Positions 11,408 through 34,903 of a stretch of 64,000 nucleotides of DNA are shown here, one piece after another (within the stretch, counting starts at the first letter, position 1; every line of letters begins with the position of its first letter). The stretch spans positions 1 through 64,000 of the forward strand of contig JAHRWB010000043.1 of assembly GCA_019090385.1 (NCBI GenBank), in the 5' to 3' direction. The stretch comes from Pseudomonadales bacterium. GTDB lineage: Bacteria; Pseudomonadota; Gammaproteobacteria; Pseudomonadales; Azotimanducaceae. The notes beneath the pieces were generated by a model that was given only the letters and a program-made list of their open reading frames with translations, was not told the DNA's origin and made no database searches. The position numbers and the translations under genes are program-made.

Positions 11408-12520
11408 ATGAAACCCTGTATCTCAGCAGACTCGCATATCGTTGAACCACCTAATTGTTATGTGGATTTCATCGACCCAAAATACCGTAAAATCGCCCCT
11501 CATATCGAAAAGAACTCCTATGGGGTCGATGGCTTTAAGGTAGAGGGCATGGACAATAGTTTACCCTTGGGTTTGCTTGCAGGTGCCGGCGTACCAACCG
11601 AGGAACTGGGTAAACAGAAAAAACTCAATTTTGATCAATTGGTCAGCGCCGCCTGGAACCCCATTGATCGTCTGGCCATTCAAGATGAAGAAAATATTAC
11701 CGCAGAAATCATCTATGCTTCTGTAGGTATGGTGCTTTGCGGCCTTGAAGATTATAGCTATAAATCCGCCTGCTTCAATGCTTACAACCGATGGTTGGAA
11801 ACTTTTTGTGGCGAGGCGCCTACCCGTTACTATGGTTTGGCACAAACCTCCGTAGCATCTGTGGATGAAACGATTGAAGACTTCCGCCGCGCCAAAGAAA
11901 TGGGCATGGTCGGCATGATGATGACAGGCAATCCCCAGCATGAGGATTATGATCACCCTGATTATGATGCATTATGGGAATGCGCTGTCGATCTTGATAT
12001 GCCTGTTGCTTTTCACATTCTCACAATGAAAGGCCATGACGTATCATCGATATTCACACCTAGCAGAGGGCCGGCCGGACTTGGTTTTTTAAACATCATA
12101 CGTGGTGTGCAAGATATTATGGGTCTATTTGTATTCGGCGGTGTTTTCGAACGCTTTCCGAAGCTGAAAATGGTGGTAGCAGAAGGTGATGCGGGTTGGG
12201 TACCACACTATATGTATCGAGCTGATCACGGAGCCGCACGATTGGGTAGCAAGGATAAGTTGTTTTCCAAGCCACCCAGCCACTATGTACGTGATAACGT
12301 CTGGTTTACTTTCCAGGATGATGAAACCGCTTATGAAAACCCAAAAATGGTTGATAACAATAAACTGATATGGGCCAGTGACTATCCTCATACGGATTCT
12401 ACCTATCCAAATTCCAAGAAAATCCTGACGGAACAAATGGCCAATTTAACCGAAGAACGGAAAAATGCAGTAGTTCATGACAATGTAGCAGAAGCTTTTA
12501 ACCTACCCGGTGTAGGCTAA
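11408..12520 (+). CDS. Amidohydrolase-family metal-dependent hydrolase (Amidohydro_2)
   Basis: A 370-residue TIM-barrel protein of the PF04909 type. It begins CISADSHIVEPP, the D-x-H of the first metal site. Later it has FHILTMKGHD, the FPKLKMVVAEGDAGWVPHY strand and ends with the WASDYPHTDSTYP motif holding the last metal Asp. Relatives include gamma-resorcylate and amino-carboxymuconate-semialdehyde decarboxylases and many uncharacterised hydrolases in marine degraders. GGAG precedes the ATG. It is preceded by an FNR/ANR-like box and its stop overlaps the convergent next gene by 4 bases. The substrate is unknown. Confidence 0.88.
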   Translation: MKPCISADSHIVEPPNCYVDFIDPKYRKIAPHIEKNSYGVDGFKVEGMDNSLPLGLLAGAGVPTEELGKQKKLNFDQLVSAAWNPIDRLAIQDEENITAEIIYASVGMVLCGLEDYSYKSACFNAYNRWLETFCGEAPTRYYGLAQTSVASVDETIEDFRRAKEMGMVGMMMTGNPQHEDYDHPDYDALWECAVDLDMPVAFHILTMKGHDVSSIFTPSRGPAGLGFLNIIRGVQDIMGLFVFGGVFERFPKLKMVVAEGDAGWVPHYMYRADHGAARLGSKDKLFSKPPSHYVRDNVWFTFQDDETAYENPKMVDNNKLIWASDYPHTDSTYPNSKKILTEQMANLTEERKNAVVHDNVAEAFNLPGVG

Positions 12521-15375
12521 TTCAATTGCGCCTTTAGTAATTGAACCTCAGGAGTGCTTACCCGGATTGGCCCGGGTAAGCCTGAGTGATTTTGATAGGC
12601 CGCCAACAAACGATACATTGTTAGATTATTTTGCCATTTTCGAGATACATTACTACCCGGCTTAAATTCACTGACGGCTAGTTGATATTGGCCTTGACAG
12701 ATTCTCCTGAACAGGCTAATCCACTGCTTAACCTCAGAGTTTTTAACCCGCGCGTCCAAACAAATCAGTGCTTCAATAGTTTCCCAAATTGCCAGGCTAT
12801 CCCCAGAAACAAGAAACGGCAATGTACTGGCCGCTATTTTTTGCATAGCATTTACCAATACCTCGGGACTGTAGGCACAAGCATTAGACTCGAGTAACAA
12901 CAATGCATGAAGCAAGTTCCGATCACCAATTTCAGAGTGATCAGCTTTGAGTATACGGTTGCGTACTCTAAGTGCCCTGCGAGCCAATTCCGCTGAATAC
13001 AAATGCAAATTGGCCGAAATCCGTTCTGGGTTCACTGGCCATTCGAAACCTTCAATTACTCGCGATAGCGCCGCAGGCACTAAACGCAAGCGTTGTAACT
13101 CCAGAGCATCATCACCCTGATAACGAGCCTTAACCGCTGCCGGGGCCAAAACAGCATGATAATCAGAGTTTGCAGCTACCGGAAAACTGTGAAAATAGGG
13201 AGAAAGCAGTTTTTCGGACCCAATACGTCGATGATAAAAATCGTCAATAGTCTCGACACCTACGTTCTCTAGCTCTTTTCTAAGTAGTTCGTTAATAAAC
13301 AGTTTTGCAGAGGGCAACGCAACGGGCTTTGCAGATTGTGCAACAATAGCGAGGTCAGTGTTATTTAGCGCGTACAATACATAATAGGGAAAACTCTGCT
13401 CCAAAGCTTTCATAACTGACGCAACTGCTTGAGGGTTCATACCATAAATCTGCATCCATTGGATAAATATGCCGTTCGGTTTTAGATGACGTCGCATCAC
13501 CCGATAGTGCTCAAGCGAAAAAAGGCTCGCAATACCACTGATCCAGGGATTTGAGGGCTCTGAAATAATCAGATCATATTGATTTTTACTATTTGAAAAA
13601 TAAGTTTTTGCATCCTCAATAATGAGGTTACTACGTGGATCCGAGAATACTCTCGCTACCCGGCCACCAAAAAATCGGGCACCGTCGATCATGGCTGGTT
13701 CGATTTCTACAGTATCAAGCCGTTCAATCTGCTCTGAAGCAAGTAAAGTATTACTTGTAATACCTGATCCAAACCCAATAACAGCTGCCGTCCTGATATC
13801 GTCATGGAGAGCCAGCGGCAAAGCACCTAACAGAAGCATAGTGGGCTCATCTTTACTCGGGAACTGATCATTTACTGCCGCATCAACTTTGCCGTTAGTT
13901 GCAATTGCCAGGGAATTGTCGTTCATAAAAACATCAATAGAGGCAGTTTTTCCATCTTTGTGAAACAATATTTCTCGCGACGTCTTAATAATGCCACGCA
14001 GATAAACGCCTGAGGCCATTTTTATGGGATCTAACTGAACCAGCACTACTATCGAAAACCAAACACAGCTCGCCACCACAGCCACAATCATCGCCCGCCA
14101 TTTCATAACTGATATTTTTTTTATCAGCCACCAGCCTAGTGCTATATCTGCAAGCGCACCCACACATATCAAAACCTTTAAACCATACACCGGCATCAAT
14201 ATATGCAGCGCTAACAAAACTCCCAGCAAACTGCCCAATGTGTTTGCAGAATAAATTTTACCAACGCTGGCTTCACCGTGACCGTCTTTTACTAAACATT
14301 GAGTCAACAATGGCAAAGTCATTCCGGCACATATGGTCACAGGCAACATAAATGCAAACACTAAAGAATGACAAAGAAGATTAAACAGCACATACCCCTG
14401 ATCGCTTTGTGACAAGGCACTGATAAAAAATTGCATTGCAACAAATGTCTGGTCATAAAAAGCGATACTCAGAGCGGCAAAGGCACCCATAAATAACTGC
14501 ACCAGGCCCAATACCCGTTGCGGCTCGCTGATAGAATCGATGCGTATGCGAATGACAAAACCGCCGATAGCCAGGCCCGTGATAAAAGCACTCAGCATTA
14601 GCTCAAAGGCATGCGCAGAACTTCCCAACACCAAACTCAACATGCGAATCCAGCCGATCTCATACATAAAAGATGCAGTCCCCGTAACAGCGGCTACAGC
14701 TATAAATAACCAGCCTGGATTCAGGTTATTAAGAGGAGTCGAACTGGCGGCAGCTGCCGACCGGCGGCCAAGAAAATATGCAAGCAGAGCGACCAGACAA
14801 TTAACAGAACCTGCGAATGCCATCGTAGCCGGCAAACCAAATTTTGGTGCAAGATAAAAACCAGTGACAAGCACACCAAGTGCTGCCCCCAAACTATTAA
14901 CAAAATACACCCCGGCAGTTGAATACCCCATAGACTGATCACTGGCCCGATCCAGACCAGCCACCATTAGAGGGAAAGTAGCACCCAACAATATAGTTTG
15001 TGGGAACACCAATAATCCGGCAACCAGCCACTTGCTAGCCGTGATAACAACAAATCCTTCTACCCCAGGTAACCAGTGTTCAAAATAGAGATCCGTGCTG
15101 ACGATAAATAGCCAATGGAATAAAAGTGCAGAAAGCCCAATAAAAAGTTCTATCAGTGCATAGACAACCAGAGGGCGTGACAATCGAACCAAATATCTAC
15201 CTGCGAGGTAAGCGCCTAGCGAAAGCCCTCCCATAAACAACATTAACACCAAGGACTGAGCGTAAGCAGTATGGCCCAAAAACAGACTCAGATACTGGGT
15301 CCAAATGGATTCGTAAAGTAAACCAGTGGCACCAGATATTCCAAAAAGGGCAACTAGAAGAGGCCTAAACCACAC
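12517..15375 (-). CDS. Fused MFS-like transporter / spermidine synthase-like protein
   Basis: A 952-residue protein. The first roughly 450 residues are a polytopic membrane part with about twelve or more helices (GATGLLYESIWTQYLSLFLG, GLSLGAYLAGR and a second copy MYEIGWIRMLSLVLGSS). The second half is a class I methyltransferase fold of the spermidine synthase type, with VIGFGSGITSNTLL, DTVEIEPAMI, EDAKTYF and IISEPSNPW. A helical C-terminal region follows. Such fusions are widespread in bacteria; the reaction and the role of the membrane part are not established. It is convergent with the amidohydrolase (4-base overlap of stop codons). Confidence 0.88.
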   Translation of the reverse strand: MWFRPLLVALFGISGATGLLYESIWTQYLSLFLGHTAYAQSLVLMLFMGGLSLGAYLAGRYLVRLSRPLVVYALIELFIGLSALLFHWLFIVSTDLYFEHWLPGVEGFVVITASKWLVAGLLVFPQTILLGATFPLMVAGLDRASDQSMGYSTAGVYFVNSLGAALGVLVTGFYLAPKFGLPATMAFAGSVNCLVALLAYFLGRRSAAAASSTPLNNLNPGWLFIAVAAVTGTASFMYEIGWIRMLSLVLGSSAHAFELMLSAFITGLAIGGFVIRIRIDSISEPQRVLGLVQLFMGAFAALSIAFYDQTFVAMQFFISALSQSDQGYVLFNLLCHSLVFAFMLPVTICAGMTLPLLTQCLVKDGHGEASVGKIYSANTLGSLLGVLLALHILMPVYGLKVLICVGALADIALGWWLIKKISVMKWRAMIVAVVASCVWFSIVVLVQLDPIKMASGVYLRGIIKTSREILFHKDGKTASIDVFMNDNSLAIATNGKVDAAVNDQFPSKDEPTMLLLGALPLALHDDIRTAAVIGFGSGITSNTLLASEQIERLDTVEIEPAMIDGARFFGGRVARVFSDPRSNLIIEDAKTYFSNSKNQYDLIISEPSNPWISGIASLFSLEHYRVMRRHLKPNGIFIQWMQIYGMNPQAVASVMKALEQSFPYYVLYALNNTDLAIVAQSAKPVALPSAKLFINELLRKELENVGVETIDDFYHRRIGSEKLLSPYFHSFPVAANSDYHAVLAPAAVKARYQGDDALELQRLRLVPAALSRVIEGFEWPVNPERISANLHLYSAELARRALRVRNRILKADHSEIGDRNLLHALLLLESNACAYSPEVLVNAMQKIAASTLPFLVSGDSLAIWETIEALICLDARVKNSEVKQWISLFRRICQGQYQLAVSEFKPGSNVSRKWQNNLTMYRLLAAYQNHSGLPGPIRVSTPEVQLLKAQLN

Positions 15376-18153: not shown

Positions 18154-18526
18154 AAGTCCTCCTGACCATTCTCCAGAGTATGGCCGCTGGGTCAGCGTTA
18201 CGATACTGCAGGATCTTCATATTAGATAGAAGTATCTGAGCATCGGTTTAATGAGTATGCGCCCTAAATCCAAGCTGGATTTACTTACTGCACACTCCTT
18301 TCATATCCGGCATTTATTTCCCATCGTTTACCCTCTATTTTAGCGTGAATGCCCTATGCGATAACTTCTATAAATTAATGAGCAGATATTCTACCCAAAA
18401 TCATCAACTACACTACCCCTTCAGCACGAGGGATCGTACTATTGACACTATTAGATTTAATAACATTAACTGAAATTGTGACTTCAAGTGTTTTCAATGC
18501 AGTCACAAAAGCAAGGCACTGCCAAA
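18154..18526. other. Divergent intergenic region before the envelope island
   Basis: These 373 bases separate two divergent genes. The right side has a TTGACA hexamer (listed separately). I see no RNA gene and no convincing small ORF. Confidence 0.5.
18442..18470 (+). promoter_or_regulatory. Candidate promoter of the PBP4-like lipoprotein gene
   Basis: A perfect -35 hexamer, TTGACA (18442-18447), lies 17 bases before ATTAAC (18465-18470), a weak -10 match. The gene's ATG is at 18527, giving a leader of about 50 bases. The -35 is strong but the -10 is poor. Confidence 0.35.
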
Positions 18527-19813
18527 ATGTACACAAGATGCAAACATTCATATTTAATTGTTTGCCTATCAATACTCGTTTCAATTTCAGCTTGCTCAGA
18601 AAAAACTGCTATATCCACAGGAACACTAAAAGCACCAGTCTTTTATGTTGAGGATCCTAATGGCACAATCCTGGAATCATCACAGGAAAATGTACTCATA
18701 AACCCTGCATCCGTCGTAAAAGTTGCAACTTCACTATGGGCAATCACGCAGTTGGGGCCTGAACACCGTTTTGAAACAAAGGTAGCGTATCGCGGATACT
18801 TCAATACTACTGAGCATATAATTGTTGGTGACCTTCTTGTTCTTGGATTCGGAGATCCAGACTTCCATATAGAAAATGCTTACCTTTTGGCACGGGAATT
18901 AAATCGCATCGGTATAAAGGAAATTCACGGCAAACTATTGGTGAACTCAAAATTCTGGATAGGCTGGGAAGGCGGATCAGAGAGGCGCGAAAAGGACGCC
19001 TTGCTAAGAGCAAAAAAAATGGCTGTTCGTTTGCAAAACTCACTCAATCCAAAACTATGGAAAAAAGGTGATCTGCGATCAATAAGAAAATTCGAAAAGC
19101 GCAGAGGATTTACCGCAAACAACCGCCCAAGTATTGTTGTTGTAGGCGTAGCAGATACAATTTTAACTAGCAGTTCTGACTCAGATATTCAGCCTTTGTT
19201 TACCCATAAATCAAACTCTCTGGAATCCATTTTAAAAAGATTTAATTCGTTTTCCAATAATGATATTGAACGATTAGGTGACACTTTAGGAACAGCCACG
19301 GAATTAAGTACATGGCTACATAAACGCTGGGGAGAATTTGCCAAAGGAGTATCTCTTGAAACACTTTCAGGTCTTGGTAGTAACAGGCTGTCGGCGCAAC
19401 AAATAGTTCATATGCTAAATGATCTAGAGCATACATGTATAAATTCAGGAATTAATATTGCAGACATACTTCCAGTAGCTGGATGTGATCCGGGCACTGT
19501 AAAAGACTATCCTCAGTTGCGCAAATTACTCAGGGGAAACATGATTGCCAAAACTGGAACTCTTTGGGAGACTGATGGAGGCGTATCTGTCCTCGCAGGT
19601 ATTTTGCAAACAAAAGGCGGACAGCGCACTTTTTGTGTTGCTACAGTTGATTCAGGAGAACATATACCAAAAGCTCGAGCTCAACAAGAACAATGGACAA
19701 TTGATTTACTTCGAAAAAATGGAGCCGCACCGTCAAGAAAATGCGATACGCCTCCACTATATTCAGATGGTGATGTCGTAATTATAAAGGAATACAAGAC
19801 AAGCTCATCCTAG
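18527..19813 (+). CDS. PBP4-family (S13) D-Ala-D-Ala carboxypeptidase-like lipoprotein
   Basis: With the ATG at 18527 the protein has 428 residues and starts with a lipoprotein signal whose lipobox is ISAC (Cys23). The earlier GTG at 18488 would bury this signal. All three penicillin-binding motifs are present: S62-V-V-K65 in NPASVVK, S-N-N near 243, and K-T-G near 342. GDLLVLGFGDPDF and the following stretch are typical of S13 enzymes, which trim or cut peptidoglycan cross-links in the periplasm. It is somewhat shorter than E. coli DacB. Its stop overlaps the convergent large fusion gene by 4 bases. Confidence 0.85.
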   Translation: MYTRCKHSYLIVCLSILVSISACSEKTAISTGTLKAPVFYVEDPNGTILESSQENVLINPASVVKVATSLWAITQLGPEHRFETKVAYRGYFNTTEHIIVGDLLVLGFGDPDFHIENAYLLARELNRIGIKEIHGKLLVNSKFWIGWEGGSERREKDALLRAKKMAVRLQNSLNPKLWKKGDLRSIRKFEKRRGFTANNRPSIVVVGVADTILTSSSDSDIQPLFTHKSNSLESILKRFNSFSNNDIERLGDTLGTATELSTWLHKRWGEFAKGVSLETLSGLGSNRLSAQQIVHMLNDLEHTCINSGINIADILPVAGCDPGTVKDYPQLRKLLRGNMIAKTGTLWETDGGVSVLAGILQTKGGQRTFCVATVDSGEHIPKARAQQEQWTIDLLRKNGAAPSRKCDTPPLYSDGDVVIIKEYKTSSS

Positions 19814-22800
19814 ATACTTATCTGAAATTTATCCAAAAACTGAACCGTTCTATGTATCCGAGACTCTATGCTGCTCCTATTTCTTAGATCGTGGCCTTCA
19901 TTTTTATAGAGTACCCACGATATATCTGAACCAACAGCACGATGCGAATCAATTTCTTTCAATCGCTTTTTATGATTGAGTTTACTATCATTTTCACCAG
20001 TAAAAGTCAGTATAGGGGGCAGTTGTCGAGGAGCGCTCCAATTCAAATCATCAATGGGCGAATATTCCACCACACCATCTACCTGAACTCGATTTCTACT
20101 CAATACTGTCTGGACAATTCTTGTACCCGTACTAACACCAAGCAAAAATACTCTCGAATAGGTTTTTGCCAGCATGTGAATGAGCTCTTCAGTTTCAGCA
20201 GCCTGAATATCAAATGACCGAGTGAATTTTTTACGTTCGACCGTCCAGGGCACCGAGTAATTCAGGGCATAAAAATCATAACCTGAAAGAGAGAAATATT
20301 GAGCATACTCATGCCATCGTGGAGAAAACTCGTTACTTCCACCATGCAGCCAAATAATTGCAGAATTTTTACTCTCTAATTGGTTCGCCGGGTAATGGTA
20401 GGTCGATATCTCATCATAATTATTCGAAATGACCTCTTTTGGCAATATTACATTCTCCGGCTTTATCCAATCTAATCCTAAAACCAATGACCCGGTAGCG
20501 TTTTCAGATATATCGTTATTAAGAATTGGTAACTTATAAATCGAAGCTGCTGTATACGCATCACTGGCCACAAAAATTAGTGCACTGGATGCAAATGTAC
20601 TGTGCACAGTATAAACAACCCCTTGATCAGGGCCGACAGCTACGAGCTCGCCAGATTCCGTTGCTATTTTCTTTAGCAACACCTGGTTACCCTGCACATT
20701 ATGGACCAGTATATTTTGGCTACTTAACCATACTGGGTTTGCTATCAGAGAATCATCAGTACTATACGTAACCTCTTGTTTATCGCTTGCAATACTACCA
20801 ATCAGCAAACTGGAATTATGCTGACCTGTACGTAAGGTGTATGCATACCTATCTCCACCCGGTGAAAAAACTGGATCAGAAAACTTCCCGGTAATTGAGT
20901 TTGTAAGATTACGGCTTTGATTTTGTGCATCCAGTAAAGTTATTGTATTCCCTCCGAGCACAAACAGAAGTTCCCTTTTATTTGGATGCCAGGCTACATC
21001 ACTTATATAAGCTTTGCTTTTATACACTTCCTCAAATATTTTACCTTTTGAGTCACTGATAAACAGGCGATAAAATTCATTGGAATATTTTAATAATGCA
21101 ATATTTCCTCCATTAGAAGAAAGCTCATAACTTACTAGCTTTCCTTCCGGAAGAATTACTTTACTCGTTACGTTGGTATTGAGATTAAGCCGGTACAATT
21201 GATAATTATCGTCCCCGCGTTTGTCAGAAATATAATACAAATGGCTTTTGGAAACTCTCAATCGAAATGGAGAGTGCGAATCATTTGTTTGAAGAAAAAC
21301 TCCAGAATGCCCGGTACAGTAGTTGATTTTCCACAAATTGAATCTAGCATTTATATTCGACGAAAAATATAGATCGCAACCTTTCACGGCCAAACTCTTA
21401 TGCAGTTTTGGTATGCGAAGTACTTCGCGAAGCGTAGCTTCTGTTGTCTCTGCTGGAGTAGCGTTCAGTTCTTCCACCCTCCTGCTATACTCTCGATACT
21501 TACCGTAGTAACGGGAAACCGTCTTTCGAGATTGGACCCCAAAATCATTTAGACCCATTCTTTCCCATAATAAATCTCTACCCAATTCCAGATTCGCTCG
21601 CGCACTCAAAAAATCAGCATTACCCAAATCTAAGGTCGCCATTAAACCGTAAAGTGCAGGGCTATGCGGGTTAACTACGGCTGCCTTCTTGCAGTACCCC
21701 CCTGCCAGTTCATACCTGCCAGAACGAAAATTTGCATGACACAGGCTAATGAGGGCAGACGAATTTGAAGCATTGCGATCCAAAGCTTTACGATACCAGC
21801 GAATAGCAAGATCAAGATTCCCAGATTTTTCTAAATATCTACCCACCTGCAAATTCAAGTCTGTAGCGTCTGGGGCCAGGTACCTGCTTACATCCTCTAT
21901 GACTTCTGCATGCTGGACTAATGAGGCCACATCAACCGGCATGGATATCAACTCAGAAAAAGGTCTTGCCAAATCCCATAAAAACCTCCGCGCCTGCTTA
22001 GTTTTATACATTGCGCTTTCAAATGCGCGCTGTTCCAATTGCGCGAATGAAAAACGTGTCTCTACCACAAACAAAGCCAGGGAGGATAAAATGACAATGG
22101 CCATTATTTTTCTGAAAAACGGCGCACTAGTTTTTCTTAAACCTGCATTGTTATCCTGCCAGAGTAAAAAGCCGCAAGTAAACACGAAACCAAATAGGGT
22201 AATCTTAAAATCGTAAACACTATGAAAACATAAAGTAACCAGCCACCCTATCAATGAATAATGTGCAATTGTTCTAAAGTCTGATACTTCTTTTTCATAT
22301 TTCCTACGGCTCAGAATATAACAAACATAGGCACAAAATAGTGAAAAACCGAACAAACCTGTTTCTGCAAGAATGTGTATATATGTATTTACAGCTGTCG
22401 AGAGACCACTGGAATCAGGCAATATTGAGTGGCGATAATTTTCAAAAACTGCCGACCAATTTCCTATGCCAACACCAAAAAACAAGTGATCCTGAATCAA
22501 TGGAAGGGCATTAGTCCATCGACGTATACGCCCCCCAATAGAACCTTCATCAAAATAGCCAAAAGTGCCCAAGACAGAAAACAGACTATCATTACCCAGT
22601 CTAATAGATAGATAGTCCGCTATCGCAAATACAATTAAAATGGAGCCTGGTATAACCAGCATTCGCATACTTAAACTGTACTTAGAAAATAGCTGTTCTC
22701 TGTTTAGCAGGAACAGCAAAAAGGACAGAAATACTCCAAGCCAAACAGCCCGTGACTGGGTCAACAATATAGCCGCGAGAACCAAAACAAAAGCAATACC

Positions 22801-23358
22801 GTATTGAAAACGCTTTAGTGTTAATCGAGAATTCAGCGCTCTGGATAGGAAGAAAAAAAATGGCAATATGAGTAACATAGCCAGATGATTCTGTGAAATA
22901 TCAAATGGCATTTTTGAAAAACCTACCCAGTGGTTGAGTATATAAAACGCCGCGCCTAATCCAGCAAAGGCACAGTAGGTCTCTAACACCTTTACTAATA
23001 ATTCACGATGGGCAATCCTGCTTATCAGAAACAGAAACAATATTGCTTGCAACCACCAGCCAATAACCAACAAGCGAGAAAGCGGATTCAGAAAAAACAC
23101 TCCTGCCAAAAACCCTTCACAAACAAACAGGAAGAGTACCAGTTCGGCGCATCCGATTTTTCGCGCTGAATAGGTTTTGGGAAGCAACCAAACTATAAAG
23201 GCGAACACCATCAAACACAAAGCAGTGGACACTTGTTGAAATTGTGCTGAAAACAAATTATCTACGGGCACAGCCCACGCCACTAAAACTATGCTTACAC
23301 AACATAGTGTCAGCAATCGGTTACCCATAGCACTGCATCGCAATGTGTCCAACTGCAT
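19810..23358 (-). CDS. O-antigen ligase-like / TPR / beta-propeller / S9-type hydrolase fusion
   Basis: An 1182-residue protein with four parts. Residues 1 to about 440 are polytopic membrane helices of the O-antigen ligase/polymerase (Wzy_C) type, with LLTQSRAVWLGVFLSFLLF, GVGIGNWSAVFENYR and HILAETGLFGFSLF. About 485-620 are TPR-like repeats (YLEKSGNLDLAIRWYRKAL and following). About 655-960 resemble TolB/DPP-type beta-propeller blades (YYISDKRGDDNYQLYRLNL, DPVFSPGGDRYAYTL). From about 998 there is an alpha/beta hydrolase with WLHGGSNEF, GVSTG (Ser1076), Asp1124 and His1156, as in prolyl-oligopeptidase enzymes. The soluble parts follow the last helix near 425-440 and are probably periplasmic. 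The combination is unfamiliar to me; the function is unknown. Confidence 0.85.
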   Translation of the reverse strand: MQLDTLRCSAMGNRLLTLCCVSIVLVAWAVPVDNLFSAQFQQVSTALCLMVFAFIVWLLPKTYSARKIGCAELVLFLFVCEGFLAGVFFLNPLSRLLVIGWWLQAILFLFLISRIAHRELLVKVLETYCAFAGLGAAFYILNHWVGFSKMPFDISQNHLAMLLILPFFFFLSRALNSRLTLKRFQYGIAFVLVLAAILLTQSRAVWLGVFLSFLLFLLNREQLFSKYSLSMRMLVIPGSILIVFAIADYLSIRLGNDSLFSVLGTFGYFDEGSIGGRIRRWTNALPLIQDHLFFGVGIGNWSAVFENYRHSILPDSSGLSTAVNTYIHILAETGLFGFSLFCAYVCYILSRRKYEKEVSDFRTIAHYSLIGWLVTLCFHSVYDFKITLFGFVFTCGFLLWQDNNAGLRKTSAPFFRKIMAIVILSSLALFVVETRFSFAQLEQRAFESAMYKTKQARRFLWDLARPFSELISMPVDVASLVQHAEVIEDVSRYLAPDATDLNLQVGRYLEKSGNLDLAIRWYRKALDRNASNSSALISLCHANFRSGRYELAGGYCKKAAVVNPHSPALYGLMATLDLGNADFLSARANLELGRDLLWERMGLNDFGVQSRKTVSRYYGKYREYSRRVEELNATPAETTEATLREVLRIPKLHKSLAVKGCDLYFSSNINARFNLWKINYCTGHSGVFLQTNDSHSPFRLRVSKSHLYYISDKRGDDNYQLYRLNLNTNVTSKVILPEGKLVSYELSSNGGNIALLKYSNEFYRLFISDSKGKIFEEVYKSKAYISDVAWHPNKRELLFVLGGNTITLLDAQNQSRNLTNSITGKFSDPVFSPGGDRYAYTLRTGQHNSSLLIGSIASDKQEVTYSTDDSLIANPVWLSSQNILVHNVQGNQVLLKKIATESGELVAVGPDQGVVYTVHSTFASSALIFVASDAYTAASIYKLPILNNDISENATGSLVLGLDWIKPENVILPKEVISNNYDEISTYHYPANQLESKNSAIIWLHGGSNEFSPRWHEYAQYFSLSGYDFYALNYSVPWTVERKKFTRSFDIQAAETEELIHMLAKTYSRVFLLGVSTGTRIVQTVLSRNRVQVDGVVEYSPIDDLNWSAPRQLPPILTFTGENDSKLNHKKRLKEIDSHRAVGSDISWVLYKNEGHDLRNRSSIESRIHRTVQFLDKFQISI

Positions 23359-23508
23359 AAATCTGATCCGTTATTGCACCAACGGGAAAGATTAATATAC
23401 AGCGGCGTACGTATTCAATACGCTATTTATTAGCTTTGTAAGCATATTTATTACAAATTAATGGGCCAGCGCCAAACATGTCAAAACTGCTTTTGCTACT
23501 ATTAGCGA

Positions 23509-24276
23509 ATGACAATCCTACATCGCAAACTACTTCCTGCAATACTGGCTGCGACACTATATTTTTTTTTATCAAATAATACTTTAGCGTCAGAGTGCAA
23601 CAAGGAAGACTTTCTAATCATGCTTGATGCAGGACACACTAAAGAAAGGAGTGGTGCTATAAGCGCTACAGGAAAATCCGAATACAGTTACAACAAGAAT
23701 ATTGTTAATCTGTTGGAAAAAAACCTTCTACTGTCTGGTTTCAAAAAAATATTTCAGACTAACAGGCAGGACAGTGACATAACCCTGACCAGTAGAGCTG
23801 CGCTAGCAAATGCAATGCATGCGAATATTTTTATTTCAATCCATCATGATTCAGTACAACCCAAGTACTTATCTAAATGGAGGTTTGACAACAACGTGTA
23901 TGCCTATAGTGATAGATTCAACGGCTTTTCTGTGTTTTTTTCCAGGCACAACCCTCAGGCTAGGGCTAGTTTGTATTTTGCTTTGCTTCTCGGTTCCGAG
24001 CTTAGAAAAGAAAATTTGAAGCCTACAATGCATCATGCGGAAAATATACCGGGCGAAAATAGAGCCGTCGTAGATAAAGTTAAAGGTGTTTTCGAGTACA
24101 GCCAGCTGACGGTATTAAGAAAGGCAAATATGCCGGCACTCCTCCTAGAATGTGGCATTATAGTAAACAGAAAAGAGGAAGTTCTGCTCTCTAGTTCTGT
24201 ACACCAAAATAAATTAGTTACCGCCCTTACCAAAGCTATAAAAAATTACTGTCAAAAACAAGCTGCAATGACATGA
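23509..24276 (+). CDS. N-acetylmuramoyl-L-alanine amidase (Amidase_3)
   Basis: A 255-residue exported amidase that cuts the bond between muramic acid and the stem peptide in peptidoglycan. A signal peptide ends near TLASEC. Zinc ligands can be assigned as His43 (LDAGH), Glu58 and His112 (SIHHD); the catalytic Glu is about residue 214 in LLLECGI. There is only the catalytic domain, with no AMIN or SPOR part. An insert around residues 120-150 is unlike AmiA/B/C. It is divergent from the large ligase/hydrolase fusion across 150 bases. Recognition of the family is secure; its specific role is inferred from neighbours. Confidence 0.9.
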   Translation: MTILHRKLLPAILAATLYFFLSNNTLASECNKEDFLIMLDAGHTKERSGAISATGKSEYSYNKNIVNLLEKNLLLSGFKKIFQTNRQDSDITLTSRAALANAMHANIFISIHHDSVQPKYLSKWRFDNNVYAYSDRFNGFSVFFSRHNPQARASLYFALLLGSELRKENLKPTMHHAENIPGENRAVVDKVKGVFEYSQLTVLRKANMPALLLECGIIVNRKEEVLLSSSVHQNKLVTALTKAIKNYCQKQAAMT

Positions 24277-24386
24277 GAGAAACCAGCAAAAGTGAGAAAA
24301 TCGCGGATCTAAATTGGTGCACTCTGAATTCTATCAAAGTTACAAACACAGACCAGTAACCACAATCAATGCACAATATTACCGTT

Positions 24387-25874
24387 TCAGAGTATTGACT
24401 CAATCGGCAGCAGCTTAATCAGGCTAAGCAGTATTCGCTTACTACACGACACTTCATTATCCGGCGTGTATTTTATTGTTGTTTGCCAGCTATTTTCGGT
24501 GCGCACGTCCCGCTCGATAGATTCTGTAAGTTGATGAGCGAGCGTTTTGCTTTCGATTAACACACCAACTTCGGTATTTAGATTTGCGGACCTCGGATCA
24601 AGGTTAAAGGTACCAATAAATATTGTTTTACCGTCAATCACCATGCTCTTTGCATGTATGGCAAACACGGGATTATTTTCCGCAATACGTGGATAGCGCT
24701 CCACAAGTATCTCCTGTATGCCCGGGTGTGGCTTGAACTCAAATAGCTCTACTCCGGCCTGCAACAAGTATGGACGCTGCCGATGGTAACCGCTAAATGC
24801 AGCAATATTGTCAGTAGAAGCCAGAGAATTGGTAGATATGCGAACCCTAACACCGCGGCTAATCAAATTGCTGAGAAGTTCGATCCCACCTTTTGGCATA
24901 ATTAGATAGGGTGACTGGATAAGTACTGACTCCGTCGCCGCAGTCAGTGCCTCGATTAGACGACTCGTAGACTCTCCCCCACCCTGAAGGCCCGATTTGC
25001 CATCATTCTTACCCGGCATATCACTAATAAAGGAAACAGTCTGCCAGGACATTTTCTGTATAATTTCCGGAAACAGTTGTGCAATGTTATTGATTGCCTC
25101 ACGGACCAGGGGTTCGAAATTTTGGGAATCGTTAGCGTATGCATGCAATAGGCCCGCCTTCTCTGCAAGATCCTCATCTGTCAGATTATGAGACTCCCCA
25201 TCAAAAATTTTTTCGACGGGAATCGACAAGCTGCTATGCCAAAATTCTTCAAAATTTTCATGCATATCTGACACGGCCGAGCCCATTAATAATATGTCAC
25301 GATCTCGGAAATTGTAGTCTCTATTATAATCAAAATACTCATCCGCCATATTCCGGCCACCCGTGATTCCGGCGATCCCATCGAATATTACTGTCTTATC
25401 ATGCATGCGTTGATTAACGCTACGAAATTGCGTAAATATATTGAGAATGCGGCGCCAAAAACTCACACCAACAAACAGGTTTGGGTTATAGATTCGAATT
25501 TGTACATTCGGGTGAGCAGACAACATTAACAGCGTTTCATCCTCAGCGTTAACCAGAAGATCATCTACAAGCACACGAACTGAAACGCCCCGCTCCGCTG
25601 CCGCCAACAGTTTTTCTGCAGCCAATATACCGATATTATCGGAGCTCCAGATAAAGTACTGAACATCAATGCTGTACTCAGCCTGCTGTGTCAGCCATGC
25701 CCGCCCAATGAGGGCCTCCTCGCCTTTTTCAAGGATGTAAGCACCTGTTTGTGAAGGCATCTGCTTCACACATTCTGCACAATTATCATCAAGCCATTGC
25801 TGAATTGAGCGGGCATGCGAGGTAGTAGCCGACAACAAGCAAGACAATAACACTATGGATAAACGTAGGATCAT
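24387..25874 (-). CDS. Phospholipase D-family protein, cardiolipin synthase ClsC-like
   Basis: About 495 residues with two HKD motifs: HDKTVIFDG with GGRN after it, and HAKSMVIDG followed by GTFNLDPRSANLNTE. This places it in the phospholipase D superfamily near ClsC/YmdC, which makes cardiolipin from two phospholipids. The ATG at 25874 gives a clean signal peptide (MILRLSIVLLSCLLSATTSHA), so the enzyme acts in the periplasm or at the membrane face; the open frame extends further upstream to 25970. It has no ymdB-like partner. A neighbouring role in envelope lipids is inference. Confidence 0.86.
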   Translation of the reverse strand: MILRLSIVLLSCLLSATTSHARSIQQWLDDNCAECVKQMPSQTGAYILEKGEEALIGRAWLTQQAEYSIDVQYFIWSSDNIGILAAEKLLAAAERGVSVRVLVDDLLVNAEDETLLMLSAHPNVQIRIYNPNLFVGVSFWRRILNIFTQFRSVNQRMHDKTVIFDGIAGITGGRNMADEYFDYNRDYNFRDRDILLMGSAVSDMHENFEEFWHSSLSIPVEKIFDGESHNLTDEDLAEKAGLLHAYANDSQNFEPLVREAINNIAQLFPEIIQKMSWQTVSFISDMPGKNDGKSGLQGGGESTSRLIEALTAATESVLIQSPYLIMPKGGIELLSNLISRGVRVRISTNSLASTDNIAAFSGYHRQRPYLLQAGVELFEFKPHPGIQEILVERYPRIAENNPVFAIHAKSMVIDGKTIFIGTFNLDPRSANLNTEVGVLIESKTLAHQLTESIERDVRTENSWQTTIKYTPDNEVSCSKRILLSLIKLLPIESIL

Positions 25875-25941
25875 ATTTATATTGTAGCTTGGTTCCCTTT
25901 GCCTAGCGTAATTTGGCCTCACCAGCATTTCAAGGCTGCTT

Positions 25942-25973
25942 TTTGTCGACACACCTATTTGTCGACACACCTA
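25942..25973. repeat. Perfect 16-bp tandem duplication
   Basis: TTTGTCGACACACCTA occurs twice back to back (25942-25957 and 25958-25973) in the intergenic region upstream of the phospholipase D-like gene. Confidence 0.9.
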
Positions 25974-26050: not shown

Positions 26051-26120
26051 CTACTATTTTTTATGCATCAACTACTATTTTTGATACACCTACTATTATT
26101 TTTAATACACCTACTACCAT
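26051..26120. repeat. Degenerate tandem repeat of about 20 bp
   Basis: The motif CTACTATTTTTNATACAC recurs about three times with small length changes, starting near 26051, 26071 and 26091, and ends with CTACTACCATTT. It looks like slippage-generated low-complexity DNA. Confidence 0.65.
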
Positions 26121-26285: not shown

Positions 26286-28487
26286 ATGAAATATAGGAAA
26301 ACGCAGAATTCTCACATCCGTTTGTGGTTGGGCGCACTCTGCCTCTTGATAACCGGTATTTCCAATGCAGCATCTACTAAAGATCGGCTGATTGAGGAAG
26401 TAATCGTCACAGCAACAAAGAAAAACACCTTGGAGCACGTACAAGATGTGCCCATCGCCATGAGCGCATTTACTGAAGATCAAATAAACGCGCTCAAGCT
26501 ACAGGATGTCACTGACGTGAGCCTGGCAATACCTAATGTGGATCTTCAACCAGTCGGCACCTCAAGAGCCACCGCACGCTTTTCAATACGCGGCTGGGCA
26601 CCAACCAGTTCGATCGCCTCCATTGACCCAACGGTGGGGACCCTTATAGATGGTCTGTATCTACCGTCTAATACTGGTGTCATATACGATACCTTCGACC
26701 TTGCGAGTATAGAAGTACTACGTGGCCCCCAAGGTGTATTGTTTGGGAGAAATGTTGTTGGGGGAGCGGTACTCATTAATACCAAAAAACCTAGCGAAGA
26801 ATTTGAGGCACAAGTTAAAGTCCGGGGTGAGTCTGGATTGCGTGGTACTGGCGAGAATATGACCTACACGGGCATCGTCACGGGCCCAATCACGGATGGC
26901 CTGCGCGGCAAATTTGCCGTCTATCATAATAAGGATGCCGGTTGGTTTAAAAACGAATTCAATGGCGATAACTTTGATAAAAGCGAAACCACACTGGTAC
27001 GTGGCGCGCTTTCCTGGGATCTGGGAGATACCGCAAATTTCCTATTAAGCTATGAACATGGACATCAGGATGGAGATCAACAACCAAATCAGTCCCATGA
27101 TAACCGGGCCGATGGCAATCCTGGTTTATTTTCCCGCGGCGGACATAAAATGACATCAGATTTGGAAGAAGGATTTCAAAAAGCTGAATGGGACCAAGTG
27201 ATCTTTACTTCCAATATCGACGTGTCCTTTGGTGACGGTACAATCACTAATATCTTCGGGTACAGAGACTATGAAAATAGAACTTTCCTGGATATAGACG
27301 GTGTAGATGCGCTTAATTTCCATTCATTTGGTGGCGCCAAGATAGAGTTCTTCAGTAACGAGCTGCGTTATTTCGGCACATTTGGCGATCTCAGCGTAAC
27401 TACGGGGATTTACTATCTCGAATCAGAAATCACTATCCAGAGTCAGCGGCAGTTATTCGGCTTCGTGGCCCAGCAAAATAGCGGTGGTACTCAAGATGCT
27501 GAAACCAAGGGTATCTTCTTCAATGCAGATTATCAGCTAAACGAAAAGCTAAACCTGTCATTTGGTCTGCGCTATACCGAAGAAGATAAAGAAGCCACCA
27601 GTGCTGCCCTCGCTAACAACACGACCACTGGATGTGGGCCTCTTTTCGGGCCTGTACCCTGTATAAATGACGTCGTTGACGAGAGTGATGACTGGAGCAA
27701 TCTGTCTCATAAAATCGGCTTTAGCTATGGCCTGAATGATGACGCATTGGTCTACGGACACTGGTCACGCAGTTTCCGTGCAGGGGGTTATAACCTGAGA
27801 CGCTCAACGGTGACAGCCGACAGAGAATCTTTTGATGAAGAACAGGTCGACCAATACGAAATAGGCTTTAAAGCTGATTTCAACGAAAACGTAAGATTAA
27901 ACCTGTCAGCATTCTTCAGTCAGGGCCAGGATCTCCAGCGCCTAATTCTGGACCCAATTACCATTTTCCAGGTAACTGCTAATACGGCAGATGCAGACAT
28001 ATATGGCATAGAACTGGATACACGTATATTTTTAACAGAACAGCTAACCCTTATTGCTAGCGCGGGCTATATGCATGCTGAATATACCAAGGTGCTTTTC
28101 GACCTGAACGGTGACAGCGTTGTTGACCAGCTAGATGAAGACCTGGATCTGCCAGCTGTGCCAGAACTGACTAACTCCATTAGCTTTATTTACGACACCC
28201 CAGTTGGCAGCTTTGGCACCGTCTCATCGCAATTGACTTACAGTCATCGAGGAGATATTAAGAGTGTAGCCAATAATAACTTGCTAAATTCTCGGGATGT
28301 AATAGATCTGAATATCTCCTTATTTCCCAACGAAGCAAACTGGGAAGTATCGCTATATGGTAAAAACCTGACCAACGACGTGTTTATTATTCAGGACACG
28401 CCAATAAGCTCCCGTTTGGGTAGTACTATCGGCACGCTGGGTAAAGGACGACGTTTTGGGCTTGAGTTCAAGTATAACTTCAATTAA
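26286..28487 (+). CDS. TonB-dependent outer-membrane receptor (copy 1)
   Basis: A 733-residue TonB-dependent receptor. A signal peptide ends near ISNAAS and is followed by a TonB-box-like IEEVIVTATK. The plug has the usual VLRGPQGVLFGRNVVGGAV. A 22-strand barrel follows, ending in GRRFGLEFKYNFN with a terminal aromatic-rich strand. It takes up an unknown ligand using TonB-ExbBD energy. AGGGGAT is the RBS. It is strongly similar along its whole length to the next gene, so the two are a tandem duplicate. Plug and barrel resemble receptors common in Sphingomonas-type and marine degraders; siderophore versus hydrophobic substrate cannot be decided. Confidence 0.94.
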   Translation: MKYRKTQNSHIRLWLGALCLLITGISNAASTKDRLIEEVIVTATKKNTLEHVQDVPIAMSAFTEDQINALKLQDVTDVSLAIPNVDLQPVGTSRATARFSIRGWAPTSSIASIDPTVGTLIDGLYLPSNTGVIYDTFDLASIEVLRGPQGVLFGRNVVGGAVLINTKKPSEEFEAQVKVRGESGLRGTGENMTYTGIVTGPITDGLRGKFAVYHNKDAGWFKNEFNGDNFDKSETTLVRGALSWDLGDTANFLLSYEHGHQDGDQQPNQSHDNRADGNPGLFSRGGHKMTSDLEEGFQKAEWDQVIFTSNIDVSFGDGTITNIFGYRDYENRTFLDIDGVDALNFHSFGGAKIEFFSNELRYFGTFGDLSVTTGIYYLESEITIQSQRQLFGFVAQQNSGGTQDAETKGIFFNADYQLNEKLNLSFGLRYTEEDKEATSAALANNTTTGCGPLFGPVPCINDVVDESDDWSNLSHKIGFSYGLNDDALVYGHWSRSFRAGGYNLRRSTVTADRESFDEEQVDQYEIGFKADFNENVRLNLSAFFSQGQDLQRLILDPITIFQVTANTADADIYGIELDTRIFLTEQLTLIASAGYMHAEYTKVLFDLNGDSVVDQLDEDLDLPAVPELTNSISFIYDTPVGSFGTVSSQLTYSHRGDIKSVANNNLLNSRDVIDLNISLFPNEANWEVSLYGKNLTNDVFIIQDTPISSRLGSTIGTLGKGRRFGLEFKYNFN

Positions 28488-28827: not shown

Positions 28828-31035
28828 ATGAAATATAGAATAGAGCAGGCAGCTCCCATGCGAGTTTTGCTAGGAGCATTTTGCATATTGTCTGCTGGCG
28901 GTTCCTATGCAGAGTCCACCAGAGACCGACTCATTGAAGAAGTAGTCGTCACTGCGACCAAAAAAAATACTGTTGAGAACGTACAAGATATACCTATTGC
29001 GATAAGCGCATTTGGTGAAGACCAAATAGACGCGCTAAAAGTTCAGGATATTTCCGACGTTGGCATGCGAATACCAAACGTTGACCTTTCGCCTGTTGGC
29101 ACCTCACGCGGTACTGCACGTTTTTCAATACGTGGTTGGGCACCAACCAGCTCCGTACCTTCCATAGACCCAACAGTCGGGACTTTTGTAGACGGTTTAT
29201 ACCTGCCATCTAATGCAGGCGTGGTTTACGATACATTTGACCTCGCTAGCATAGAAGTATTGCGCGGCCCTCAGGGTGTGCTATTTGGCCGCAATGTTGT
29301 AGGCGGTGCAGTGCTTATAAATTCCAAACAACCTACCGAGGAATTTGAAGCCGAATTCAAAATCCGCGGTGAGTCCGGATTTCGTGGCACTGGCGAAAAT
29401 ATGACCTATACCGGCATTGTTACCGGCCCGATTACCGATGGTCTACGCGGCAAATTAGCCATTTATCACAATAATGATCAAGGCTGGTTCGAAAATGAAC
29501 TCAATGGCAAGAATTTTGATGCCAACGAAACCACGTTAATTCGCGCCGCCCTTGCCTGGGACCTGAGCGATACCGTAAGTTTTCAGCTCAGCTATGAAAA
29601 TGGTGACCAGGATGGCGACGGTCAACCCAATCAAAACCACGACAACCGTTTTAGCGGGAATCCTGGTCTGTTCTCACGGGACACACATAAACTCACCACA
29701 GATCTGGATAGCTTCCAAAAAGCTGAATGGGATCAGGTAATCTTTCGAACAGATATCGATGTGACATTTGGCGATGGCACGATTACCAATATCTTCGGCT
29801 GGCGGGATTTCGAAAACAGAACACTGCTTGACCTCGATGGTCGACCGGTTGCTGCGTGGCACTCAAAAGGTGGCACCTCAGTTGAGTTCTTCAGTAATGA
29901 GCTGCGTTACTTCGGCACCTTCGGTGATCTCAGTCTGACAACGGGGTTTTACTACCTTGATTCTGAAATTGTTGTACAAAGTCTACGTATGAGGAGCATT
30001 AACCCTGGAGTGACTCCAGTAGGTCTTCAGAATGCTTCTGGTAATCAAGATGCCGAAACCTTTGGTGTGTTTATCAATACAGACTATCAGTTGAACGAGA
30101 AAATCAATCTGACCTTTGGACTGCGTTACACAGAAGAAGAGAAGGAAGCCGATAGTGCTGCCTATTCCAACAACACTGTGACTGAGTGCGGCGACGTTTT
30201 CGGACCCGTACCCTGCGTCAATGATGTTATTGGTGCCAAGGATGACTGGAGCAATATCTCTCACAAAATCGGGTTCACTTACGATCTAAATGATGCCTCT
30301 ATGGTTTATGGTCACTGGTCCCGCAGCTTTCGTGCTGGCGGTTACAATCTTCGACGCTCAAATGTAGCAGATGACCGAGGTTCCTTTGATGAAGAACAAG
30401 TAGATCAATTTGAAGTCGGTATCAAATCAGATTTAACCGAAGATATTCGCTTGAACCTGTCTGCATTCTTCCTCCAGGGTCAGGATCTACAGCGTATCAT
30501 TCTTGATCCCGTTACGGTTGCTCAAACAACTGCCAACACAGCTGATGCAGATATCTTCGGGATCGAACTCGATACCCGAATATTCCTAACTGAGCAATTA
30601 ACGATTATTGCTGCGGCTGGCTGGATGGATGCAGAGTACACCGATGTGTTCTTCGATCTAAATAAGGACAATGTGGTTGATGATGCCGACGAAGCGCTGG
30701 ACCTCCCCTCCGTGCCTAGACTAACGAATTCCATAAGCGTGATATATGATCTTCCCCTGGGTGACTTTGGTTTGCTAACTTCGCAAATATCCTATAGCCA
30801 TCGTGGAGATCTAACGAATACACGTAATGTGAACTTACAAAATTCACGGGATGAGATTGACTTTAATATTGCACTATTCCCAAATGAAGGAAGTTGGGAA
30901 TTGTCATTGTACGGGAAAAACCTGACCAACGACGTTAACTTCCTACAAGATACCTCTCTTGGGCCCTTTGGCTTGATTGGGACTATGGGTAAAGGACGAC
31001 GTTTCGGTCTGGAGTTTAAGTACAGTATCAATTAA
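28828..31035 (+). CDS. TonB-dependent outer-membrane receptor (copy 2)
   Basis: A 735-residue paralogue of the preceding receptor, colinear along the whole length. It shares EEVVVTATKKNT, VLRGPQGVLFGRNVVGGAV, the YGHWSRSFRAGGYNLRRS barrel strand and the terminal GKGRRFGLEFKY. The differences cluster in parts likely to be extracellular loops (for example RMRSINPGVTPVGLQN near residue 390, and the stretch after DAEYT), so ligand preference may differ. The RBS AGGGGAT and nearby AAACTAGT are also shared with copy 1. A strong terminator follows. Confidence 0.94.
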   Translation: MKYRIEQAAPMRVLLGAFCILSAGGSYAESTRDRLIEEVVVTATKKNTVENVQDIPIAISAFGEDQIDALKVQDISDVGMRIPNVDLSPVGTSRGTARFSIRGWAPTSSVPSIDPTVGTFVDGLYLPSNAGVVYDTFDLASIEVLRGPQGVLFGRNVVGGAVLINSKQPTEEFEAEFKIRGESGFRGTGENMTYTGIVTGPITDGLRGKLAIYHNNDQGWFENELNGKNFDANETTLIRAALAWDLSDTVSFQLSYENGDQDGDGQPNQNHDNRFSGNPGLFSRDTHKLTTDLDSFQKAEWDQVIFRTDIDVTFGDGTITNIFGWRDFENRTLLDLDGRPVAAWHSKGGTSVEFFSNELRYFGTFGDLSLTTGFYYLDSEIVVQSLRMRSINPGVTPVGLQNASGNQDAETFGVFINTDYQLNEKINLTFGLRYTEEEKEADSAAYSNNTVTECGDVFGPVPCVNDVIGAKDDWSNISHKIGFTYDLNDASMVYGHWSRSFRAGGYNLRRSNVADDRGSFDEEQVDQFEVGIKSDLTEDIRLNLSAFFLQGQDLQRIILDPVTVAQTTANTADADIFGIELDTRIFLTEQLTIIAAAGWMDAEYTDVFFDLNKDNVVDDADEALDLPSVPRLTNSISVIYDLPLGDFGLLTSQISYSHRGDLTNTRNVNLQNSRDEIDFNIALFPNEGSWELSLYGKNLTNDVNFLQDTSLGPFGLIGTMGKGRRFGLEFKYSIN

Positions 31036-33103: not shown

Positions 33104-34903
33104 TCAAAGCCGCTGACTCAAAAAGTTAACCGTTATATTCACAGCTTCCTCAGTAATTTTTTCTTTTCCATTATACAAGCCAAGACCGTGGCCTGCTCCA
33201 GCAATCACGTGGTGTACGGTGTCTATACTGTTTCGAGCCGCGGCTACAACTGCCTCGGCTACTACCGGTTCAACAATATCATCCATATCTCCATGCAATA
33301 CTAAAAGCTGACCCGTAAAATTTTTAATCGATTCCAAGGGCATGCTTTCTTCCATATCAATGAACCAACCTTCTCCCAATTTCTGATCCTGTCCCCAGGC
33401 TGTAGTATATGGAGCAAAACCTTCCTTACCTGCCTGCAGTTTCAAATTGTTATATGCTTCTGCACCGCCAAGAGAGGGCACGATACCCTCTACCCCATTT
33501 GTTGCAGATGGTGCCCAGGTCGCGATAACTTGATAGGACTTGTCCATTGAAGCAAGTAGCAAGGCCAACCGTCCACCCATACTATAACCCAATAGACCTA
33601 CACGGTTTTTATTAACAGGTATTTTCGTCAATACAAATTCCCGTGCGGACTGAATATCTCTTAGCATATTGCTCAAATTGTTAGCAACGAAGCTTTCCGT
33701 GCTCTCACCACAACCTGGGAAATCCATCCTGACGGATGCTATACCCCGAGCGGCAAGACCTTCTGCAACACCAGTAAATCCACCCGCTTCATGACGCGTA
33801 CCACCATGACCATGCGCCATGACCACCAGTGGATAGCTTTCACCAGGCGTTACGAAAGGAAAAACGTAAGTAAGCGGAATGCTAACACCTCTTGATGTGA
33901 TATGCGTATCAACTGACTTGAACTTAAACGATCTAAGCTTCTCCGCCCCAGCCCGTTTCACCAGCTCAATATGCCAATCCTCACCATAATCGATATCGTA
34001 CTTCTCAGCAAAATTGCCCTGGTTGATGGCTATACTCAAATCACCACTAGAGTTAATAAACAGTAAGTTGTCTCCCACCGCGACATCACCAAAGGACCTT
34101 GCATAAGGAAGACTACCCTTCCAGACAGTTTTATCATGGTGCTTTATTACAACATCAAAGAGATCATCAAAATTTGCTTGGGAATTTTCGAATAACGAGC
34201 GATCTATGCTGAACTCAATATTGCCCAGGCGCCCAGTTCCCCCGGATACGAACCCAGATAACACACCATTTTCATAGGAGGCATCCAGCCTATCCAGCTC
34301 AATGACTTTCGGTGCGAGTAAGGAGCCAACCTGACGGAAAGAGATAACGCCAGCGGCAAGTCTTGCACCCGTATAAGAATATACATCCCTACCGTGAAAA
34401 GTATGCGCCCAGTCAGTATCCGGTCGGCGGTTTACAGACTCATCGATTTCTCTCACTGCAGCAACACCATACGCCTTTGCCGGCCCGGATAAGGAACCAT
34501 TATCCGGGCTGACAAAATACAGCCCATTGTTGGTTTTCAACACTACCGACTTCCGAGAAGTACCTACACCCGGATCGACCACCGATACAAAAACGCTGCC
34601 GGCAGGCCAAGTCTGAGCATTGTAAGCCAGACTCGCACTTGCCGCGCGGATATCATATAAAGGAATTAGCGGCCGGATGTTATATATGTCCAGCGCATTG
34701 CTTACCGAGTAGGCTACCCCGGTCATTACCACGCCAGAGAAATCAGCCTGAAGTATCAGCGCGTTGCTTTCGGGTTTTTGGCCGAATGCCTGGGCTTTAG
34801 CAGCTTGATCTTTTGCCAGTTGATCTTTTGCCAAAAGAACTGGCACCGGCAACACCAGCGCCAAGAATGCCAAAGCAAAAAATGCATAGACAACGCGTCG
34901 CAT
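33104..34903 (-). CDS. Exported SAM hydrolase (DUF62)-alpha/beta hydrolase fusion
   Basis: A 599-residue two-domain protein. After a signal peptide (about residues 1-25) comes an S-adenosylmethionine hydroxide adenosyltransferase domain (PF01887, about 46-310). The family marks are ADFSG, VDPGVGT, PDNGSL and TFHGRD. Asp110, Arg117 and His170 fit the reported Asp-Arg-His catalytic set. From about 330 there is a dienelactone-hydrolase-like domain with MAHGHGG, GYSMGG (Ser441), Asp541/542 and His572. GGAGG stands 4 bases before the ATG. A short AKDQ repeat follows the signal. Export of a SAM-type enzyme is odd because SAM is cytosolic. The substrate is unknown. Confidence 0.85.
   Translation of the reverse strand: MRRVVYAFFALAFLALVLPVPVLLAKDQLAKDQAAKAQAFGQKPESNALILQADFSGVVMTGVAYSVSNALDIYNIRPLIPLYDIRAASASLAYNAQTWPAGSVFVSVVDPGVGTSRKSVVLKTNNGLYFVSPDNGSLSGPAKAYGVAAVREIDESVNRRPDTDWAHTFHGRDVYSYTGARLAAGVISFRQVGSLLAPKVIELDRLDASYENGVLSGFVSGGTGRLGNIEFSIDRSLFENSQANFDDLFDVVIKHHDKTVWKGSLPYARSFGDVAVGDNLLFINSSGDLSIAINQGNFAEKYDIDYGEDWHIELVKRAGAEKLRSFKFKSVDTHITSRGVSIPLTYVFPFVTPGESYPLVVMAHGHGGTRHEAGGFTGVAEGLAARGIASVRMDFPGCGESTESFVANNLSNMLRDIQSAREFVLTKIPVNKNRVGLLGYSMGGRLALLLASMDKSYQVIATWAPSATNGVEGIVPSLGGAEAYNNLKLQAGKEGFAPYTTAWGQDQKLGEGWFIDMEESMPLESIKNFTGQLLVLHGDMDDIVEPVVAEAVVAAARNSIDTVHHVIAGAGHGLGLYNGKEKITEEAVNITVNFLSQRL
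34805..34833. repeat. 15-bp tandem duplication at the start of the SAM-hydrolase fusion gene
   Basis: TTGATCTTTTGCCAG is repeated directly (the second copy lacks the last base). It encodes the AKDQLAKDQ repeat just after the signal peptide. Confidence 0.8.

Follow-up and report, generated by a model that had tools for sequence, protein, structure and literature searches.

Can one bacterial polypeptide carry an O-antigen ligase-like membrane domain and a serine hydrolase, and what would such a protein do? This question is raised by an open reading frame at 19810..23358 on the minus strand of the 64,000-nucleotide stretch of DNA analyzed here (the window). The initial annotation described it as a single chain of four parts—membrane domain, TPRs, β-propeller, and hydrolase—and proposed that this one protein might both polymerize or ligate an envelope molecule and process it.

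Continuity and rarity of the four-part gene

The frame runs on the minus strand, a detail missing from the initial annotation, from an ATG at 23358 to a stop at 19810-19812. As claimed, its 1182 codons are uninterrupted, as is apparent from the ORF listing and from frame continuity, with zero stops on the coding strand and many on the plus strand across the same region. Upstream of the ATG, the open frame is only four codons longer (1186 aa). A codon-bias score, trained on further genes from the window, ranks this frame first of the six in 38 of 38 overlapping stretches of 60 codons, with every junction included. Hence, with one frame favored over the full length, nothing points to an artefact at a junction. 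An assembly or binning error, by which a Wzy_C–TPR gene and an S9-like gene were joined in frame, would fit a draft genome of 229 contigs and an architecture that is a singleton. However, the frame and its coding bias are kept across the join, no repeats or inverted repeats were found at any fusion junction, the membrane, propeller, and hydrolase parts are alike in base composition (GC 0.39-0.40), and the contig around the gene measures at least 64 kb—which makes such an error highly improbable. An unbroken four-part fusion gene is confirmed for this uncultured gammaproteobacterium.

The architecture had also been presumed to be rare, and no second example came to light in the genomes sampled or the collections scanned. 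It was found neither in 147 relatives nor in 369 genomes of the class, nor in viral contigs or plasmid and phage collections, nor, when the C-terminal half was used, in 245 genomes of the order. An exact-match scan for six 8-residue peptides across 84,980 species genomes, which excludes close relatives only, gave no relative. Apart from TolB-like propellers and ordinary Wzy_C proteins, the orthologue searches gave no more than a few weak hits of TPR or hydrolase type; in the sampled genomes, the best hits are ∼22-36% identical, each over a single part. The longest Wzy_C open frame among the listed matches from 399 genomes of the phylum has 746 aa, and a membrane–TPR profile run on 274 genomes returned, among the matches listed, frames of 1018 and 798 aa besides the query. 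On reading, neither qualifies as a long relative or a similar fusion: the first looks like a normal Wzy_C gene whose frame runs back through the upstream gene in another frame, and the second encodes a 763-aa Wzy_C protein whose C-terminal extension is long. A weak 1059-aa match in the genome itself is an RND efflux pump by sequence. No defence or phage family matched the fusion protein, and a literature search for a ligase–hydrolase fusion found nothing relevant. The domains are known ones; their combination is without a second case in the collections searched.

Domains from the inner membrane to the hydrolase

All domain and residue coordinates given in the following are on the minus strand. 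The membrane domain (residues ∼1-440; 22039..23358) is predicted to comprise 13 helices, based on hydropathy, the helices of an AlphaFold2 model, and a match to WaaL. It bears the Wzy_C family (PF04932; residues 188-342; 22333..22797), which the Pfam scan of the full chain recovers with E 2.3e-19 and 70.1 bits versus a cut-off of 31.7; the same scan gave no Wzy_C_2 match. The model of residues 1-639 has a mean pLDDT of 60 and fits 13 membrane helices as far as ∼residue 432. With TPR hits set aside, the fold that it matches best is WaaL (7tpg; E 1.1e-3 over 368 alignment columns), and the membrane part alone found no match among PDB sequences. Lysines and arginines in the loops, counted by eye on the helices of this model, amount to ∼20 in the even-numbered short loops versus ∼3 in the short odd ones. 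For 13 helices, this bias points to an N-in/C-out topology by the positive-inside rule, which would place everything after residue ∼433 in the periplasm.

This putative periplasmic tail starts with a helical/TPR segment (residues ∼441-635; 21454..22038), which emerges from Pfam, the AlphaFold2 model, and a scan of the separate piece: several TPR models match at ∼501-575 in the full chain, and TPR_16 reaches 34.3 (cut-off 32.7) when the segment is scanned alone. In its succession of membrane domain and helical/TPR segment, as well as in length, the stretch of residues 1-635 resembles Wzy_C–TPR proteins of ∼610-760 aa (G000 C135, with 679 aa; L033; L009). These end after the helical segment and keep the catalytic histidine, whereas the fusion protein runs ∼550 residues further. 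Propeller and hydrolase hence look like an addition to a complete Wzy_C–TPR protein. From reading the sequence, no separate signal peptide is apparent ahead of the propeller, so that the tail would rely on the membrane part for export.

The TolB/DPP-like β-propeller (residues ∼655-960; 20479..21396) stays under every Pfam cut-off and is assigned from a TolB match (E 1e-4), from the structure model, and from the PDB acylaminoacyl peptidase 5l8s, which matches propeller and hydrolase with E 1.3e-6 in a search independent of any alignment built in the analysis. The AlphaFold2 model of residues 640-1182 has a mean pLDDT of 49, with ∼75-85 over most of the hydrolase and less than 50 in the second half of the propeller. 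Its best PDB fold matches are S9 peptidases, spanning propeller and hydrolase (4hxf with E 1.6e-15, TM-scores near 0.3)—matches that are partly guided, since the alignment behind this model was built with eight S9 rows.

The chain ends in a compact α/β hydrolase of S9/S33 type (residues ∼985-1182; 19813..20406), as indicated by alignment, model, fold match, and separate-piece scan. A hydrolase fold beyond residue 990 was indeed recovered by the domain search: in the full chain, Hydrolase_4 matches residues 999-1133 at its cut-off and Peptidase_S9 (PF00326) residues 1095-1177 with 20.1 bits, under its cut-off of 22.6, and with the domain scanned alone both pass (Hydrolase_4 with 32.6 versus 27, Peptidase_S9 with 26.7 versus 22.6). 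Hydrolase_4 outscores Peptidase_S9 in both scans. The proposed triad is located as annotated, with the nucleophile Ser1076 in GVSTG (20131..20133), Asp1124 (19987..19989), and His1156 in NEGHD (19891..19893), all of which occupy invariant columns in the alignment with eight S9 peptidases. Together, Pfam, the TolB and 5l8s matches, and the fold matches bear out the four parts in one chain.

With S9 peptidases (the acylaminoacyl peptidases 4HXF/5L8S, S9 carboxypeptidases, and DPP4), the fusion protein has in common the propeller followed by an α/β hydrolase, the Ser-Asp-His order, and the HGG and GxSxG motifs. It differs from them in that its hydrolase is compact (∼200 aa), is joined to a polytopic membrane domain, and reads GVSTGT where the aligned S9 rows bear GxSxGG. 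Given this deviating motif and the shortness of the domain, the hydrolase could equally be an esterase as a peptidase.

Retained arginines and a lost histidine

In Escherichia coli WaaL, R215, R288, and H338 matter for function, and their conserved counterparts in PglL of Neisseria meningitidis are R224, R298, and H349 (PMC3643930); H338 is the proposed catalytic base (PMC10449877). In a 14-row alignment, the fusion protein retains Arg203 (22750..22752) at the position of R215 and Arg277 (22528..22530) at that of R288 (PMC3643930), with a spacing of 74 residues versus 73 in WaaL. Both are invariant, as are N157, G295, G297, E332, and G334. The position of the catalytic histidine (WaaL H338, PglL H349, PglS H324), however, is taken by Val323 (22390..22392), so that of the two arginines and one histidine that mark PglL-type O-oligosaccharyltransferases only the arginines are present. 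The surrounding motif reads TAVNTYIHILAETGLFG in the fusion protein versus AHNDYL..L.E.G..G in the others. As the valine codon, GTA, differs from CAT and CAC at all three positions, Val323 is not a single base error. The 53 aligned rows hold histidine in this column 47 times, valine four times, and glutamate twice; all four valine rows are copies of the fusion locus and one histidine row is a spurious antisense frame, which leaves ∼48 independent proteins compared. Among these Wzy_C ORFs, valine occurs at this locus only. The two glutamate-bearing Wzy_C proteins (L012 and L013, with AENEY and AENDY) may represent a natural active-site variant.

The fusion protein shares with WaaL (PF04932; 7TPG/7TPJ) the 13-helix GT-C_B-like membrane domain, the conserved arginines, and, from the motif at ∼residues 324-337, the N-x9-G-x-x-G part. 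What sets it apart is the valine in place of the catalytic histidine, an extended periplasmic tail made up of TPRs, propeller, and hydrolase, and a gene that lies outside any LPS locus. PglL and PglS likewise bear Wzy_C, the two arginines, and a C-terminal periplasmic extension, but in the fusion protein this extension is an enzyme module and the catalytic histidine is absent. The same genome encodes two further Wzy_C proteins with an intact histidine—a separate one of 679 aa with VHNDY and one of 417 aa with AHNLF. Hence, the cell need not rely on the fusion gene for ligation or polymerization.

These data bear directly on the idea of a bifunctional envelope enzyme, whose membrane domain would polymerize or ligate a lipid-linked glycan by means of another base and whose hydrolase would trim or de-esterify the product. 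The conservation of Arg203, Arg277, Asn157, and Glu332 and the high Wzy_C score indicate a domain that is not decaying overall, and glutamate in two of the compared ORFs indicates a base position that is not absolutely fixed. Nevertheless, valine is unable to serve as a base, its substitution is unique in the compared set, the gene lies outside a sugar locus, and the corresponding PglS variant H324A serves as an inactive control (PMC12800693), so that we regard such an enzyme as unlikely. Of the activities initially suggested for this one protein, processing is plausible, as the hydrolase half looks catalytically complete, but polymerization or ligation is doubtful in view of Val323. With the catalytic-base histidine lost, a combined polymerize-and-process enzyme is not the best reading, and the membrane domain has most likely lost its transferase activity. 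Still, H310 or H328 could act as the base, the retained arginines could mean catalysis by another route, and histidine, judging from the two homologues with glutamate, is not universal at this position.

Genomic setting and proposed role

The fusion gene lies in a low-GC block of three genes (18250..24300), between two plus-strand neighbors. A PBP4/S13-like peptidase gene (18488..19813), encoding SxxK and KTG motifs, is convergent and overlaps the end of the fusion ORF by 4 bases; an N-acetylmuramoyl-L-alanine amidase gene (Amidase_3; 23509..24276) is divergent and 150 bases away. The block genes have a GC of 0.39-0.41 and a GC3 of 0.30-0.37, and the remaining window genes that were measured 0.42-0.50 and 0.39-0.50, respectively. 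The fusion gene is not part of a sugar locus. By position only, this placement hints at cell-wall work. Elsewhere in the genome lies a 52% paralogue of the S13 gene, and a 53% relative is found within the genus; neither adjoins a Wzy_C or S9 gene, and no Wzy_C, S9, or similar amidase gene was found near the S13 relatives on contigs of the same genus and of Acidobacteriota. The three genes are hence no conserved set. An empty-site comparison met with genes beyond the Fer2 gene that differ in three relatives, which makes the site not comparable.

The PBP4/S13-like subfamily (window 18488-19813, plus strand; L114:6340-7695; L115:8596-9849; L150-L155) includes this paralogue and the same-genus relative; within the scanned genomes, all its other members, at 40-45% identity, come from Acidobacteriota MAGs. 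Beside the low-GC block, 24387-25970 (minus strand) encodes a PLD-family protein with two PLDc domains, which has a 52% relative in one same-family genome; at E 1e-60, the same-genus genome gave none. Two similar tandem TonB-dependent receptor genes follow at 26286-28487 and 28828-31035 (plus strand), likely a duplication, and an AT-rich 21-base repeat in three head-to-tail copies (26051-26113) lies upstream of the first. A second unusual fusion in the window, of 599 aa (33104-34903, minus strand), combines SAM hydroxide adenosyltransferase domains (PF01887 and PF20257) with an α/β hydrolase (Hydrolase_4/Abhydrolase_6/S9), and 12517-15375 (minus strand) encodes a 952-aa polytopic protein with a spermidine-synthase domain.

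As the reading to prefer, with a probability of about one half, we propose a natural fusion of a Wzy_C–TPR membrane anchor, which no longer transfers glycan, with a propeller-gated periplasmic serine hydrolase. In such a fusion, a complete Wzy_C–TPR membrane protein would have been joined to a hydrolase of S9/S33 type. Its membrane part keeps the GT-C_B scaffold of 13 helices, together with the Und-PP-holding arginines, but lacks the catalytic-base histidine; it would anchor the chain in the inner membrane and may retain binding of a lipid-linked (Und-PP) glycan. TPRs and propeller would select or admit the substrate in the periplasm—in S9 peptidases, the propeller restricts substrate access. 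The triad Ser1076-Asp1124-His1156 would then cleave an ester or amide/peptide bond in a molecule of the envelope, perhaps at a group attached to peptidoglycan or to a lipid-linked glycan. The protein thus probably works as a rare envelope hydrolase anchored in the membrane rather than as a ligase.

The flanking cell-wall hydrolase genes in the same low-GC block count in favor of this membrane-anchored hydrolase. A narrower version would make it a peptidoglycan-specific module, whose hydrolase acts together with the neighboring S13 peptidase and amidase, the substrates being muropeptides or lipid-linked precursors of the cell wall. Gene position and shared low GC agree with this, as does the mechanistic comparison drawn between the SEDS protein RodA and WaaL (PMC10449877), but the S13 relatives in the same genus and, more distantly, in Acidobacteriota occur without these neighbors, and we consider the restriction to peptidoglycan quite improbable. 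Similarly improbable is a recently inactivated Wzy_C–TPR copy in a gene that is decaying as a whole, or in a near-neutral fusion without a fixed role. The loss of the key histidine, a GC3 below that of the neighbors, and the lack of a homologue of the same architecture in any collection searched speak for it. However, decay would be expected to show stops or loss of the triad, whereas the frame is intact over 3.5 kb with its codon bias kept throughout, and the hydrolase triad and the membrane arginines are conserved.

Several points weigh against the anchored-hydrolase reading as well: the second half of the modeled propeller is of low confidence (pLDDT < 50) and the S9-row alignment favors S9 fold matches, the collections searched gave no homologue that would show selection on the fusion or on the substitution, and the cell-wall link is one of gene position only. 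As a singleton from a draft genome, the fusion protein is a lead, not yet a system.

A more far-reaching and rather tentative idea is that the GT-C_B ligase scaffold acts as a noncatalytic receptor for a lipid-linked glycan and positions the periplasmic serine hydrolase—a dead ligase that aims a hydrolase. If the membrane domain is such a binding scaffold, the protein would be a "pseudo-ligase," in which the fold of an Und-PP-glycan transferase now serves another enzyme as its docking or sensing part. This would suggest that lipid-linked or envelope glycans are processed in the periplasm, a step of which we found no description, and would make it a testable question whether GT-C_B proteins can work without their base.
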